From Rhodospirillales bacterium (GTDB lineage: Bacteria; Pseudomonadota; Alphaproteobacteria; Kiloniellales; JACOMY01), in NCBI GenBank assembly GCA_014324045.1, contig JACOMY010000011.1, forward strand, positions 1 through 64,000: a stretch of DNA of 64,000 nucleotides, read 5' to 3'. How positions within the stretch are numbered: the stretch's first letter is position 1; each line of letters begins with the position of its first letter. Shown here in pieces: positions 2,876 to 44,202 of this stretch. The notes below the pieces were generated by a model. It did no database searches. It had not been told where the DNA came from and worked only from the letters and a program-made list of their open reading frames with translations. Made by a program: the position numbers and the translations under genes.

Positions 2876-4192
2876 ATGCCCAACGCCCAAGATCGCCAAG
2901 GCCTTGGCATGAGCGGCGCCGACAGCGATTGCGCCGAGGCCTACGACCGAAGCTGCGAAGACTTCCTCTGCTACCGCGGCGATCCCATCGGCCGCATGAA
3001 AAAAGCCTTGGCGGCGCGGCCCAACTTCGTCATGGGCTACCTCTTCATCGCGCTCTTGAACCTCACCGGCATGGAGCCCAAGAGTTTCCGGCGGGCCGCC
3101 CGGAAACTGGACCAAGCCGAAGCATACCCGATGAACGGGCGCGAGCGCCTGTTGCTCGCCGCCGGGCGCGCCTATGCCGCCGGCAGGTTCCATCAGGCCT
3201 TGCAACGAATCGAGACCCTGCTGCTGGAATGGCCGCGGGACATCCTGGCCCTGCAGCTGGGCCAGTTGCTCGACTTCTACCGGGGCGACAGCCGCAGCCT
3301 GCGCGACCGCGTGGCCCGGCGCCTGCAGGCCTGGTCGCCCGAGGACCCTGCCTACCACGGGGTCCTGGGCTTGCATGCCTTCGGTCTGGAAGAATCCGGC
3401 CTTTACGCACAAGCGGAAGCGGCCGGTCAGGCCGCCATCGGCTTCAACCCGGAGAACGCCTGGGCCGCCCACGCCGTCGCGCACGTCTACGAAATGCAGG
3501 CCCGCCCCGACGCCGGTATCGCCTGGCTGCGCGGAACCCAAGAGGGCTGGACCCGCGACAACTTCTTTCAGGTTCATAACTGGTGGCACCTGGCGCTCTG
3601 CCATCTGGAGCGCGACGAAGAGGCCAAGGCCCTGGCCCTTTACGACGGCCCCATCCGGGCCGCCTGGAACAACGTGGTGCTGGAGTTGACCGACGCCTCC
3701 TCGCTACTGTGGCGCCTGCATCTGCGCGGCAACGGCGCCGGCGATCGCTGGCAGGCGGCCGGCGAGGCCTGGCTGCCCTTCGTCGAGAGCGACATTCACG
3801 CCTTCAACACGCTGCACGCCGTCATGGCCTTCCTGGCACTCGGCTGGGAGAAGGAGCTGGACGCCCTGGTAGCCCGCATGGAGGCCTGCGCGGCCGGCGA
3901 TGCGGACAATGCCGCCATGGAGCGCTTGGTCGGCCTGCCACTGGCGCGCGGATTTACCGCCTTCCAGCGCGGCGACTACGAGACGACCATCGCCGCGCTC
4001 ATCGATCTGCGCGGGCCGGCGCAGCACTTCGGCGGCAGCCACGCGCAGCGAGACATCATCGACTTGACCCTGCTAGAGGCCGCCGCGCGCGCGCCGAACC
4101 GCAGGCTGCTGGAGGCCTTGGTGGCGGAGCGCGCGGCCTTGCGGGCCGGCAGCGGCTGGGTGCGGCGCTATCGGGAGGCGGGCATAGCCTAA
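2876..4192 (+). CDS. TTC38-family tetratricopeptide-repeat protein
   Basis: The protein has 438 residues and resembles the TTC38 family, a helical-repeat family found in bacteria and animals whose biochemical role is not established. Helical pairs recur throughout, for example around residues 40-70, 100-150, 155-200 and 330-360, with the characteristic segments YHGVLGLHAFGLEESG, AAHAVAHVYEMQ and FQVHNWWHLALCHLE. An aggagg ribosome-binding site lies 6-10 bases before the ATG and fixes the start. No signal peptide or membrane segment is seen, so it is probably cytoplasmic. Its last 150 bases and the following about 65 bases are repeated at 5819-6047, on the far side of an AT-richer island. Confidence 0.85.
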   Translation: MPNAQDRQGLGMSGADSDCAEAYDRSCEDFLCYRGDPIGRMKKALAARPNFVMGYLFIALLNLTGMEPKSFRRAARKLDQAEAYPMNGRERLLLAAGRAYAAGRFHQALQRIETLLLEWPRDILALQLGQLLDFYRGDSRSLRDRVARRLQAWSPEDPAYHGVLGLHAFGLEESGLYAQAEAAGQAAIGFNPENAWAAHAVAHVYEMQARPDAGIAWLRGTQEGWTRDNFFQVHNWWHLALCHLERDEEAKALALYDGPIRAAWNNVVLELTDASSLLWRLHLRGNGAGDRWQAAGEAWLPFVESDIHAFNTLHAVMAFLALGWEKELDALVARMEACAAGDADNAAMERLVGLPLARGFTAFQRGDYETTIAALIDLRGPAQHFGGSHAQRDIIDLTLLEAAARAPNRRLLEALVAERAALRAGSGWVRRYREAGIA

Positions 4193-4256
4193 AGCGCTTA
4201 TTTAAACGGCCCCTTGCGGAAGGCCCCTTACCGGCCGAAGCGGTGACAGACCCCGG
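4039..4256 (+). repeat. Left copy of an imperfect direct repeat bracketing an island
   Basis: This copy covers the last 50 codons of the TTC38-like gene and about 65 bases after it. The matching copy is at 5819-6047. Shared blocks include ggctgggtgcggcgctatcg, ccgaaccgcaggctg and the trailing ccttaccggccg. The left copy is intact as coding sequence and is probably the parental one. Confidence 0.85.
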
Positions 4257-4426
4257 GGTAGCGGTCACTTTGGTAGTGGGTCACTTTAGGAAGTACGGTT
4301 TTTCGGTTGCCATCGCCATGTTCATAACGAAGGCATCTATTCCCCCCGCCGCGACCCCGGCCCACAGTCCCGTGCCCCCTTTCAATTTAGTTTGCTACCT
4401 TGCGCGCGTGCGGCTATCCTACACGC

Positions 4427-4582
4427 ATGATAGCTCATAGAGATGCAAACCAGCTTGCGAAGTCCATTGTGGATATCGTAACTCAAGGTGTGCCCAACGT
4501 AATTGATACATCTGCTCAGAGCGAAGCAGGCAAAAGGGATGATCAGATGTGTACAGCCAAGCTATTGTCAAAAAATTTGTAA
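4427..4582 (+). CDS. Small ORF, possibly a truncated conserved small protein
   Basis: The reading frame gives 51 residues starting MIAHRDANQLAKSIVDIVTQ. The opening RDxNQLAKSIVDI resembles a widespread family of small basic hypothetical proteins that continue with a Gly/Lys-rich half; that second half is absent here, so this may be a truncated or frame-shifted relic. Its base composition is AT-richer than the chromosome on either side and it lies inside the repeat-bracketed island. Confidence is limited because the match is from memory and the ORF is short. Confidence 0.35.
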   Translation: MIAHRDANQLAKSIVDIVTQGVPNVIDTSAQSEAGKRDDQMCTAKLLSKNL

Positions 4583-4616
4583 ATGAGACGAGTAGAAGCA
4601 GAGGAAAGATAGGGCA

Positions 4617-5498
4617 GTGGCAAAAACTCTTCCTCCTCTCGATAGGGTTATTTTTTCCACAGTTGAAGAATCTGAAGCGCAGGTAGAAGCGTTTCTTGAT
4701 TGCGATATTTTGTATTACTATGGGGAGCTGCGAATGGGGGCCGTTACTTATTTCCGGGATGTCGTTGAAATTCTTTCCGATCGGCAGAAAAAGCGCAATA
4801 CCCTAGGCTTGTGCCTGACCACGTCCGGCGGGCAAGCAGAAGTTGTGGAAAAGATGGTCGAGATCATTCGATATCACTACGATTATTTTTATACGATCAT
4901 TCCGCTGGCTGCGATGTCCGCCGGAACCATTCTGTGTATGGCTGCCGACAAAATCTTCATGGATTACGCTTCGTCCTTAGGACCAATCGATCCACAAGTG
5001 CCAGATCGAGAGGATAAATACCTCGTCCCAGCGCTCGGATATCTAGATAAAGTTAACGAAATGCTAGAAAAAAGTCAGGATGGTACGATCACGCCTGCGG
5101 AATTTCAGATTCTTCAAAATCAAGATTTGGCAATGCTGGCATTTTACGAACAATCTAAGAATTTGTCTATCTCTCTGCTTAAGAAATGGCTGACCGACTA
5201 CAAATTCAAGGACTGGCATACTCACCGAACAACAAATCCCGGCACGCCTGTGACTTACGATCAGAAGCAAGAGAGGGCAGAAGAAATTGCCGGAAAGCTG
5301 TCCGACAATCATCTCTGGCATTCACATGGGCGAATGATTGGCATGGAGAAGCTTAGAAACGAACTGAGGATTGAGATTGAGGATTATGGCTCGGTGTCGG
5401 ATCGACGGGAGGCGATCCGCCGGTATTGTGACACATTAACGGGCTACCTTGAGAGGCAAGGCTCTCCGTTCTATATCTTTAATCGTCACGTTCACTAG
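4617..5498 (+). CDS. SDH-type Clp-fold serine protease (membrane-free)
   Basis: The protein has 293 residues and belongs to the serine dehydrogenase proteinase family (Pfam SDH_sah), a branch of the ClpP/crotonase fold. The nucleophile motif reads PLAAMSAGTILCMAAD with Ser101 as the expected catalytic serine, followed by the family hallmark SSLGPIDPQVP near residues 119-129. An oxyanion-forming Gly-Gly pair occurs in LCLTTSGGQAE around residue 71. The start is GTG at 4617 with gaggaaag upstream. No signal or membrane segment is visible. It is followed 10 bases later by a 63-residue protein, and both lie in an AT-richer island bracketed by direct repeats. The substrate is unknown; its own regulation cannot be seen. 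Confidence 0.85.
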   Translation: MAKTLPPLDRVIFSTVEESEAQVEAFLDCDILYYYGELRMGAVTYFRDVVEILSDRQKKRNTLGLCLTTSGGQAEVVEKMVEIIRYHYDYFYTIIPLAAMSAGTILCMAADKIFMDYASSLGPIDPQVPDREDKYLVPALGYLDKVNEMLEKSQDGTITPAEFQILQNQDLAMLAFYEQSKNLSISLLKKWLTDYKFKDWHTHRTTNPGTPVTYDQKQERAEEIAGKLSDNHLWHSHGRMIGMEKLRNELRIEIEDYGSVSDRREAIRRYCDTLTGYLERQGSPFYIFNRHVH

Positions 5499-5508
5499 GA
5501 GTGAGAAT

Positions 5509-5700
5509 ATGTCTATCGTAGAGGAAGTGGCAACCGCTCTCAGTAGAGGAGACCGAAAAAAAAAGGAAATGTTCGAAGAGCAGTTAAGGGCTTACGAAGA
5601 ATTTCGCAAAAAAATGGAAGCGGCTGGTATTTCTCCAAAGAAGCGGAATTTCAGTATTCCCCTAATCGAACGAATCGGTACCCCCAGATTTTTAGACTGA
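5509..5700 (+). CDS. Small hypothetical protein downstream of the Clp-fold protease
   Basis: The ORF encodes 63 residues from an ATG at 5509 preceded by taggagtga, a good ribosome-binding site; a longer upstream frame exists but overlaps the protease and lacks a site. The product is charged, with a predicted helix rich in Lys and Glu (roughly residues 10-35) and the C-terminal tail IPLIERIGTPRFLD. No family is recognised. Its 10-base spacing from the protease gene implies co-transcription, so it may be a substrate, adaptor or inhibitor of the protease; this is inference from position only. Confidence 0.6.
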   Translation: MSIVEEVATALSRGDRKKKEMFEEQLRAYEEFRKKMEAAGISPKKRNFSIPLIERIGTPRFLD

Positions 5701-5818
5701 CTGAACTGTTTAACTTGAAGGTCAGTTTGAACTTATGTTGAGCTTATGAGAAAGCGCGACAGCGAAGCCCTTGCCTTGATCGTCCGCTTGCCAGCCGAAG
5801 GTAATAGTATCCGCGTCA

Positions 5819-6047
5819 CCACGCGCAGCGGGACATCATCGACTGACCCTGCGTTAGGCCGCCGCGTGCCGAACCGCAGGCTGTTCGAGGCCCCGGTGGC
5901 GAGCACGCGGTCTTTGCGGGCCGATAGCGGCTGGGTGCGGCGCTATCGGGGGCGGGCACAAGCCTAAGGCGCTTGTTCAAACCGCCCCTTACAAAAGGCA
6001 CCTTTGGAATAAGGCGCCTTACCGGCCGCGACGGTGACGGACCCCGG
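5819..6047 (+). pseudogene. Right copy of the direct repeat: decayed fragment of the TTC38-like gene
   Basis: The sequence repeats the 3' end of the gene at 2876-4192 with substitutions and small indels. Translated fragments read PNRRL and SGWVRRYR, as in the parent, but the frame shifts near 5857. There is no start or upstream portion of the gene, so it is a non-functional fragment. It marks the right boundary of the island that carries the Clp-fold protease. Confidence 0.8.
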
Positions 6048-6161: not shown

Positions 6162-7265
<1,104 letters not shown>

Positions 7266-7390
7266 CGGACTTTAAGCTGCATTTTGGGGCTTTATTTTGG
7301 CGATTATGCACTTGACTATGCCAATCGGCGCGCCTGTGCAGGTGGGTGCACGCTAGTTATGCCGATGAACCCGCTCCATCCACACAATGA

Positions 7391-7422
7391 AGACCGACTC
7401 GCCGGAAAGACCGACTCGCCGG
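7391..7422. repeat. 17-bp-period tandem duplication in the methylase relic
   Basis: agaccgactcgccgg at 7391 recurs at 7408, a period of 17 bases. The offset is not a multiple of three and so shifts the frame. Confidence 0.75.
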
Positions 7423-7577
7423 CTGGGGCCCTTGTCAATCGCGGTTTGAAGGGGTTGGTCCAAGGCGGGCAGGCCAAGAAGTGGCGGGCGTCGTTGCTGG
7501 AAAAGCATAGGCTTGAAGCGGTGATCCAGATGACCGGCTATCCATTGCAGCCTTACACGAGCGCGGCTACAGTCATC

Positions 7578-7603
7578 GTCTATCTTCGCAGTCTATCTTC
7601 GCA
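7578..7603. repeat. 13-bp tandem duplication that breaks the methylase frame
   Basis: gtctatcttcgca occurs twice in direct succession at 7578-7590 and 7591-7603. Thirteen is not a multiple of three; the frame upstream (ending AATVIVYL) and that downstream (PENKPVLFAKIEND) differ accordingly, so the duplication itself can explain the frameshift. Confidence 0.85.
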
Positions 7604-8612
7604 GGGGCGTCCCACATCCTGAGAACAAGCCGGTCCTTTTCGCGAAGATCGAGAATGACAGTTTCCGTTTCAAGAAAGGTGTGCGGATTGTTTGTGAAGA
7701 GGATCGATTGCCCCGCACGCCGGAGCATTCCGTGCTGGAGCATTTTCAGGGCGCAGCCAGCGGGGAAGGTTTATCGGTCCGGTCGGCACTTGACGGCAAA
7801 CTCAGCTTCGCCCCCGGAGCCTACATCCCGGCGCGCGAACTTTCTGAAATAGCGATTGACGCGGGAATACAACAGGTCATCCGGGAGCGTACCGCTTTCG
7901 TCGCGCTCCACGCTTCCGATCTTGTCGCGCTGAATAGCGAGGGCAGATTCGATCCCCGCGAGGCCAAGCAGGCCCTTCGCTTGGCGGCGCAGGGCAGCGG
8001 GAACATCAACAGTTATTTTGACATTGTCTACGCCCAGAAGGCGCTTTACAGCAAAGCAGAGCTGCTTCCCGGCAACTCTCTCGCGATCTCGCCGGGCGGC
8101 GTGGAGAGCGGCTGCTACGGCTTCTACGATTTCGATAGGCTGCTCGAACCGCCCTTTGTGACCGTGCCTTGCACCGGTTCCATTGCCATGGCCTAGGTTC
8201 AGGAATGGCCTTGCGGTGTAACGGAGGACTGCCTTCTGTTACTACCGAAGCCCTCGATAGTAACAGATGTTCCGCACGCAATGCTGTATGTCGCGGCGGC
8301 TGCAATCCGTAGCGAAGGCTGGCGGTTCAGCTACGGCCGCAGGGCTACCCCGGCGCGCATTACCAGCTTCCCACTACCTCATTCCCCGGAATTGATCGAG
8401 CGCGTCAACAGTTATCTCAAACGGGCGGCAAAGATCGAAGACCAGCTGCTTGCCGATGCAGAAGACGCACTCGATAGCCGGATTGCCCGCGAGCGCATCG
8501 ACGAGATTGCCAACGAGATTGTTAAGGGGGGCAATTGCGGGTTGTCTCCGGCACGGAGCTTGAGGCACGACTGGTCTGGTGCACGACTGGCGGCCATGCC
8601 AGACGGCTAATC

Positions 8613-8907
8613 GTGCCATATGGCGCACTCGCATATACAGAACGCGCGCTCGATTTTCTCGAAGGTCTGCCACCGAAAATCAAGAAGCAGTTAACCAAGC
8701 GGGTAAAAAACCTCCTGAATGATCCCTTTCCGCCTGCATCCAAGCGACTGGCTAAGGTAAAAACGCCAGAAGGTGATCCGGTATATCGAGAGCGGTCGGG
8801 CGACTATCGCATCCTATACATCGTCCGCTCAAAACCGGATGAGATTCTTATCCTCGACATAGGACATCGACTAGGGAATCTACCGCAAGGCCAAAACCAA
8901 GACCTGA
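8613..8907 (+). pseudogene. RelE/ParE-family toxin gene with C-terminal frameshift
   Basis: From a GTG at 8613 the frame encodes a typical RelE-fold toxin: ALAYTERALDFLEGLPPKIK, a lysine-rich helix, then DPVYRERSGDYRILYIVRS and ILILDIGHR. RelE proteins are ribosome-dependent mRNA interferases or, in the ParE branch, gyrase poisons. After IGHR the frame slips; the alternative frame reads IYRKAKTKT and stops at 8905-8907, the expected C-terminus of this subfamily. The catalytic C-terminal residues are therefore lost or altered. The small ORF beginning at 8920 is the likely antitoxin. The pair sits at the end of the foreign insert in the mre cluster. Confidence 0.65.
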
Positions 8908-8919
8908 TTCGCCGGCGGC

Positions 8920-9084
8920 ATGCGGAAGGGAACCGACCTCGACGCCATCATGGCGAAAGCGCTTGACACACCTCCACCGGAAGGCGGCAAGCTTGAGCGG
9001 CTAATCTCCTATCCTCGCAAGAAACAAGTATTGACAGATCGCCTGGATTGCTGTGGTTTGGCTACTTGGGGGCTGGCTGCTTGA
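8920..9084 (+). CDS. Small antitoxin-like protein downstream of the RelE relic
   Basis: The ORF encodes 54 residues beginning MRKGTDLDAIMAKALDTPPP. It starts 13 bases after the toxin stop, in the toxin-first order known for some RelE-type pairs. The short DLDAIMAKAL helix followed by a Pro/Gly-rich tail looks like a toxin-wrapping antitoxin, but no family is recognised with certainty. The last about 20 residues are unlike the rest and may be read-through into unrelated sequence. Confidence 0.4.
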   Translation: MRKGTDLDAIMAKALDTPPPEGGKLERLISYPRKKQVLTDRLDCCGLATWGLAA

Positions 9085-42960: not shown

Positions 42961-43234
42961 AGCGAAAAAGCGAACCACTGAATTCGGATCGCATTCACCG
43001 AGCATTTGGTGTGGCGCACCGCGCGTGCGATGTTGAGCTCCAGCAGCAATTCCGTCAAGGCTCGCGCGGTGAGCCCCGGTCATGCTGTCCGGATCGACGA
43101 TCCCCCCAGATGCCGATGCCAACTGCACAGGGCGTGGAGACGATGAAGACGGTGTTGATGGTCACACTTTTACGCCGTTCCTAGCCGTCCCTTCCGCCCA
43201 GATTTTTGCTTTATGGCAGGCGTTCATCCATGCC

Positions 43235-43690
43235 CTCTGCAGCCGCTTTTACCGAACGATAGACGAGGCAAAGCTCCATGCGATGATGGGCGAGCGATCA
43301 GTGGCATTTCCATGTCTTGCAGTCAGGTGGTCGCTGGAGCGCTGCGCCGGACGTTTAGGAACCCGAGAAAACTCCCATACAACCGCTTGGTACATCAGTC
43401 GGAAAGTCGCAAAGAATGTCTGGACGGGTATCTTCGATGGACGGTCGCAAACCGGAAGTCCTGCGCTTGAAGTGATGATCGATAGCACAGCTGTTGGGGC
43501 GCACCGGGTGGCTCGAAGCCCATGCCTTGGGCCGAGTTCGCGGTGGTACGGGAATCGAAATTTATGCCCTGAGCGACACAGGGGCCGGCCAATCGCCTGC
43601 CATCTCACCGGAGCCAATGTTTCAGACTTTACTGGAGCGGAGGCACTCTTACCGCTTGTTCCGAAAAACGGCATTCTGCATGGCGGCAAC
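43235..43690 (+). pseudogene. IS5-family transposase relic
   Basis: Fragments in three frames can be joined to an IS5-type transposase: PLLPNDRRGKAPCDDGRAISGI around 43230-43300 in one frame, HVLQSGGRWS in the next, then NVWTGIFDGRSQTGSP with the first catalytic Asp in VMIDSTAVGAHR near 43470-43510, and HLTGANVSDFTGAEALLPLV near 43600. The rest of the DDE domain is missing, and no terminal inverted repeats were found. It borders the R-M island that begins at 44203, so it may mark how that island arrived. Confidence 0.65.
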
Positions 43691-44202
43691 CGTTTGCTAA
43701 TGGTTATCAGTCCGAAGCCTAGGGCAGTGGATAAGTTTGAAGTTTCCAGCTGAGTTTCTGTACGGGACGCAACGTCTTCGAAGCATTCGCCTTTCCGTCA
43801 ATTAGCGCAATACGCTGGGCAATGTTCGACAGTTGATCAGACAAGCCTGCAGCCATCGCCAAGGAGGCCCACAACGTCTGATGAACCTTGACGAATTTTA
43901 GTACATGAAATGCAGCGTGATCGCGTATGTGTAGTTTTCGACCTCCTTATGAATGTGCGTTTGTGAGATAGGCGAACCTGCGCATGGAAATCCGCATAGT
44001 TATGTCCTGGCGCTGAACATGTGATGTGCTCTAATCGCTACTTTGTCTGGCTGGCTGGCCTTCCGCTTGACACGGGCTGCGCTCGCGCCTATGGCGTTGG
44101 GAGAAAATTAGGCACAGAGTCCGGTGCCGGACCCAATCTTTGGCGATGCTCGTATGCTAGCGGCTCCGGTAATCCGACACATACAATGGCCGGGCGGCGA
44201 AG
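43691..44202. other. Gene-free spacer before the R-M island
   Basis: No gene is supported. The base composition is less GC-rich than in the flanking housekeeping genes. The promoter of the methyltransferase operon should be in its 3' part, but I could not identify a convincing one. Confidence 0.5.

Follow-up and report, generated by a model that had tools for sequence, protein, structure and literature searches.

Insertion sequences that carry passenger genes have been named transporter IS (tIS) in the ISsaga paper (PMC3129680). Members of the IS1 family generate target duplications of 8-10 bp (PMC3031569), but both one-ended IS1 insertion and much longer target duplications have precedent (PMC3031569; PMC1643837). 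The latter are exemplified by insertion with long target duplication (Nobusato et al. 2000, as cited in these two papers), which, in the accounts given there, concerns mainly restriction-modification genes in Helicobacter.

Here we describe a locus that touches upon all these categories. It lies in a 64,000-nucleotide stretch of a contig from a Rhodospirillales bacterium (hereafter the window), where a small island separates a TTC38-like gene from mreB and carries on its far side a second, decaying copy of the TTC38 gene end. We find it likely that the island represents the left portion of a right-truncated cargo transposon of an IS1-like (DDE) group, which probably arrived by an aberrant insertion and whose cargo may be a phage-exclusion module. 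If so, a puzzling repeat can be read as the fossil trace of a single transposition that went wrong.

The island and its flanking repeat

The initial annotation of this DNA had reported an AT-richer island bracketed by direct repeats of the TTC38 gene end and containing a Clp-fold protease and a small protein. The composition agrees with this description, with a GC content of 43-49% at about 4350-5700 against 65-71% in the flanks, and both genes, the protease being of the SDH type, are present (Table 1). The features that had been missed are the transposon end at 4272, the KGG-type pseudogene and the transposase stub.

The repeat was also borne out. In a local alignment of 4029-4257 with 5810-6047, 195 of 246 columns are identical and the score is 233, compared to a maximum of 31 in 300 shuffles. 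Because 5810-5818 is transposase-like, the start of the specific TTC38 repeat was set at 4039 in the left copy and 5819 in the right copy. The insert is flanked by a long direct repeat of target sequence (219-229 bp, 79% identity, far above chance), which comprises the final 151 bases of TTC38 and about 68 bases beyond it, in line with the 150 and about 65 bases of the initial annotation. No third copy of this length was found in the same genome, where the sole other match spans 34 bases. The right copy contains frameshifts and several insertions or deletions, and it differs from the left one at 3, 6 and 5 of 48 sites in codon positions 1, 2 and 3, respectively, i.e. with no third-position excess. 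The absence of codon-position bias together with the frameshifts indicates that the right copy has not been maintained as a gene, and to judge from its sequence it has drifted as non-coding DNA. It is displaced from the rest of the gene and frameshifted, and nothing is 'restored' by it. Excision via homologous recombination between the repeats, which had been anticipated, is possible in principle and should be rare, as the longest exact run common to both copies is only 25 bases.

Table 1. Features of the island and related elements in the window
Feature	Position	Strand	Evidence
TTC38-like TPR gene, intact, insertion target	2876..4192	+	ORF; homologs in the order
Left repeat copy: TTC38 3' end and about 68 bases past it	4039..4257	+	alignment
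Partial second copy of the transposon-end motif, GGTAGCGGTCACTTT	4257..4271	+	sequence; its start also aligns with the right repeat copy
Left terminal inverted repeat, GGTAGTGGGTCACTTT	4272..4288	+	same 20-bp end in the complete element L056
Broken KGG-type gene ('DANQLAK...')	4427..4582	+	comparison with L056: glycine pair lost, early stop
Cargo gene 1: SDH-type Clp-fold serine protease, 293 aa	4617..5498	+	Pfam PF01972, E 5e-12
Cargo gene 2: 63-aa partner protein	5509..5700	+	identity to the L051, L053 and L056 partners
Internal copy of the inner inverted-repeat motif (GGTCAGTTTGAACTTA), before the transposase start	5720..5735	+	same box in L056 and L071
5' stub of an IS1-like transposase gene, about 25 codons, ending at the junction	5746..5821	+	alignment with L056 3904-3979
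Junction microhomology CCA, common to the transposase and TTC38 sequences	5819..5821	+	alignment
Right repeat copy: decaying, frameshifted TTC38 3' end	5819..6047	+	alignment
mreB, gene beyond the insertion, undisturbed	6225..7265	+	PF06723, E 1e-151
Second relic, decayed right end: inverted-repeat-like sequence and transposase residues 190-291 with stops	43724..44066	-	sequence comparison

Between the repeats, the island begins with the left end of a transposon, continues with the genes in the order listed in Table 1 and is truncated within the transposase gene: the transposase homology stops at 5821 and the TTC38 homology begins at 5819, leaving a three-base overlap, CCA. The window copy retains a terminal inverted repeat at the left end only, and its truncation hides any short target duplication. 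The motif at 4272-4288 occurs just once in the 2.8-Mb genome (the reversed-pattern control gave no occurrence). Given the second, partial transposon-end motif that precedes it, the insertion point can be placed only to within 4257-4271. An ORF at 4400-4582 gave a weak match to PSMbeta, which was rejected, the ORF being the broken KGG-type gene.

The surroundings contain further irregularities. About 1.9 kb of foreign-looking DNA (7284-8970), with DNA-methylase-like fragments (recognized by eye) and a ParE-like toxin ORF (8535-8966, PF05016), lies between mreB and mreC, which indicates that foreign DNA has entered this cell-shape operon on more than one occasion. At the contig edge, 1-773 and 1614-2320 form a diverged tandem duplication (84-94%) that involves a sulfotransferase-like gene, assigned by eye with no Pfam match.

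Complete relatives of the element

The identity of the island became apparent from an element on a phage contig, L056, which is complete. Its two ends, of which the left one lies at 2484-2503, are perfect inverted repeats of 20 bp, GGTAGTGGGTCACTTTGAAA, with an 8-bp target duplication, CGCGCCCT, outside them, and it encodes a KGG-type protein, a protease 85% identical to that of the window, a small protein, an IS1-like transposase and, in addition, an acetyltransferase. Its alignment with the window extends, in the same gene order, from the KGG gene through the first 25 codons of the transposase. The transposase of L056 matches PF03400 with 34.9 bits (cut-off 24.1) and stays below the NCBIfam IS1 cut-off (66.7 vs 100 bits). 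IS21-like ends, suspected earlier from a 'ggtcacttt' motif, were dropped, as this transposase is IS1-like. A further related island, in L053, is broken at nearly the same place as the window copy, a few codons into the transposase.

Five sister elements (L071-L075), found on plasmids and phages, exhibit matching inverted repeats and differ in cargo. Perfect 8-bp duplications flank L071, located on a phage contig (GTGCAGCT), and L073, L074 and L075, located on plasmids (CGCTGGTG, AAGCCGAG and GATGATTG, respectively), while L072 possesses both ends with no matching target duplication. Hence, both inverted repeats are present in all six complete relatives and a perfect 8-bp duplication in five of them, and the insertions are at unrelated sites rather than at one preferred gene end. 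The layout of the group comprises a left inverted repeat, a KGG-type gene, variable cargo, the transposase and a right inverted repeat. The KGG-type gene, beginning with 'DANQLAK' or 'DTNQLAK', adjoins the left end in four of the six elements (L056, L071, L072 and L073), and in L056, L071 and the window the inner end motif recurs internally, ahead of the transposase. The passenger genes, which are not needed for transposition, include the protease and the small protein in the window and, in the relatives, a HipA-like kinase with DUF3037 together with a PemK-like protein (L071), HTH and Peptidase_M78 proteins (L072, L073 and L075) and another SDH protease (L074). The neighbourhoods of the sister elements suggest that these often sit among defence genes. 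A Shedu nuclease gene and a RES-Xre toxin-antitoxin pair adjoin the plasmid elements (L072, 455-1633; L074, 4883-5721).

These comparisons define a group of small transposons with the inverted repeat GGTAGTGGGTCA(C/G)TTTGAAA and 8-bp duplications, which shuttles defence-like genes among chromosomes, plasmids and phages of alphaproteobacteria. The window contains a second relic of the group (Table 1), a decayed right end in the opposite orientation. To judge from their orientation, the left end at 4272 and the right end at 43724 might also derive from a single element that an inversion broke in two; as an account of the locus this was set aside, for it leaves the repeat unexplained. Next to the second relic, an IS5-like transposase relic was noted by eye at 43200-43720, and a DNA methylase-like ORF begins at about 44204.

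Origin of the repeat

According to the initial annotation, the island was a foreign insertion that had duplicated the end of its target gene, and specifically a target-restoring integrative element that had lost its integrase. The first part of this proposal stands and the second does not, in view of the left inverted repeat and the start of a transposase. An integrative element that recombined into the 3' end of the gene, restored it with its own copy and later lost the integrase would leave an island bracketed by a direct repeat of the gene 3' end, and the left copy is indeed intact and the right one displaced; besides, the related island in L053 is located near tRNA-Phe, beside prophage genes. 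However, in place of attachment sites the island ends in a transposon inverted repeat on one side and in a broken transposase on the other, the relatives sit at unrelated sites with 8-bp duplications and share no common attachment site, and the right repeat copy is joined to the transposase via the three-base microhomology. No integrase gene or remnant was found among the ORFs of the island or in the complete relatives, the remnant present being that of a DDE transposase. The complete element L056 already largely refutes this explanation, which we regard as highly improbable.

The reading that we favour, with moderate confidence, is that a single aberrant, one-ended insertion produced the long target duplication. 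The transposase would have joined the left end to the sequence just past the TTC38 gene, while the right side of the insertion would never have been completed. Repair would then have switched template at CCA, from the interior of the transposase gene to a position on an uninserted sister chromosome that lies about 219 bases before the insertion. The element is no longer able to move on its own; selection has maintained the protease and the small protein, while decay has overtaken the KGG gene, the transposase and the extra gene end. A single event is the likelier origin of the repeat, but the identical final structure is also expected if a tandem duplication of TTC38 came first, the transposon inserted behind the first copy, and a single deletion then took away the transposon's right part along with most of the second copy. 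Such a deletion accounts for the junction with three-base microhomology inside the transposase, and a diverged tandem duplication does exist 2 kb upstream (1-773 vs 1614-2320). On the other hand, this scenario requires three events instead of two, the lack of third-position excess between the copies argues that the second one was not long maintained as a gene, and a tandem pair of TTC38 was found in none of the 58 genomes searched; we consider it the main rival, though rather unlikely.

Relatives within the order do not display the site before the insertion. Homologs of TTC38 occur in 43 of 58 genomes, but they adjoin mreB in this genome only: in none of the 57 others is TTC38 next to mreB, and there is no uninserted relative among them. 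Instead, leuA or a cysteine-synthase-like gene is found upstream of mreB. As TTC38 is never beside mreB in the relatives, the ancestral site is not visible.

The cargo pair and its place among known systems

The protease of the window was predicted with high confidence (AlphaFold2 pLDDT 93) to adopt a fold for which Foldseek returned NfeD-1510N, SppA and ClpP. It exhibits the Clp/S49 fold with a GG oxyanion turn (G71, G72) and a Ser nucleophile in SAGT (S101), and none of these residues, nor D111, D125 or H237, varies among 36 relatives. Close relatives, with 85-87% amino acid identity, come from Rhodobacteraceae (L051, L053) and the phage contig L056, while none of the 60 other genomes of the order has a match at E 1e-15. 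Compared with the relatives, silent sites are saturated and dN is only about 0.09, indicating that the gene has been kept. The 63-aa protein is 62-63% identical to its counterparts in L051, L053 and L056, with dN/dS of 0.17-0.28. In L051 (Pacificoceanicola, 7108-7623), the pair is chromosomal, located directly upstream of smpB and without transposon remains.

A profile scan detected 64 protease loci in viral contigs. A short ORF lies closely 3' of the protease in 64 of 68 loci inspected, although some of these may be chance ORFs. Homology of the small proteins exceeded shuffled controls among 19 prophage versions and, separately, among four of the window type, with no significant sequence similarity linking the prophage and the transposon versions. 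At least 27 of 46 same-strand ORFs upstream of the protease encode S24-type (CI/LexA-type) repressors. Among 5426 E. coli genomes, the pair was found in 19, with 17 of the matches covering most of the query. It directly follows a LexA/CI-type repressor on the same strand in a plasmid-borne prophage and in the four inspected chromosomal prophages that have both genes. In L078, as an exception, a short gene lies between the repressor and the pair. Another E. coli prophage (L082, 2179-3184) retains the small partner gene behind the repressor and has lost the protease gene. In phage lambda, this place beside the repressor, in the immunity region, is occupied by the exclusion genes rexAB.

Because its relatives adjoin the repressor on the downstream side in many prophages, we propose that the pair may act in phage exclusion, a defence role that is plausible on the strength of gene position. 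The protease family is recorded as PHROG 11747, of unknown function, and PADLOC contains no model for the window protease, three weak single-member matches elsewhere being unrelated. In the open-access literature searched, with subscription journals outside the search, we found neither a paper on the protease module nor a description of IS1-type elements with such cargo. Tentatively, then, an SDH/ClpP-like protease with a partner of about 60 aa could be an undescribed phage-exclusion module of many prophage repressor operons, which is also mobilised by a family of IS1-like transposons whose defence-like cargo, placed after a conserved KGG-type gene, is exchangeable. The pair might instead be an ordinary housekeeping or membrane-protein-quality protease of the NfeD/SppA kind with its neighbour, picked up by chance and with no phage role, in keeping with the structural matches to NfeD-1510N, SppA and ClpP and with the chromosomal pair beside smpB, free of transposon remains. 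That explanation seems doubtful to us, as 60 of the 61 genomes searched in the order lack relatives, which are rare in E. coli (see above) and recur downstream of prophage repressors, and as a second SDH protease is the cargo of L074, a member of the same transposon group. Should the proposed phage-exclusion role be true, the pair would constitute a new defence module, unmodelled in the defence library searched.

How do the element and its cargo compare with the described systems? Like transporter IS, the group combines a DDE transposase, short terminal inverted repeats and short target duplications with passengers unrelated to transposition. Here, however, the transposase falls short of the curated NCBIfam IS1 cut-off, the KGG-type gene recurs at the left end, the passengers are mostly defence-, repressor- or toxin-like, and the window copy is a right-truncated relic. 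With the IS1 family it shares the IS1-type DDE transposase domain, PF03400, above the cut-off, and duplications of 8 bp, close to those of IS1, but the elements are 2.6-4.2 kb long with cargo, the transposase is encoded in a single frame (294 aa) and the 20-bp ends are of other sequence. As in insertion with long target duplication, a block of foreign genes lies between long direct repeats of target sequence, but in this case the block is bounded by a transposon end on the left and by a microhomology junction on the right. The protease belongs to the same Pfam family as SDH-type serine proteases (PF01972, NF047768) and exhibits the Clp/S49/NfeD fold, yet its match to NF047768 (56 bits) is far under the NCBIfam equivalog cut-off of 250, and it is paired with a small protein. 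Relatives of the pair resemble lambda rexAB in being located directly downstream of a CI/LexA-type repressor on the same strand, whereas the proteins themselves (a Clp-fold protease and a protein of about 60 aa) are unrelated to it, the likeness being known from gene position. In sum, the island belongs to the cargo-bearing IS-like transposons, a known kind of element, and carries a cargo pair of possible defence function.
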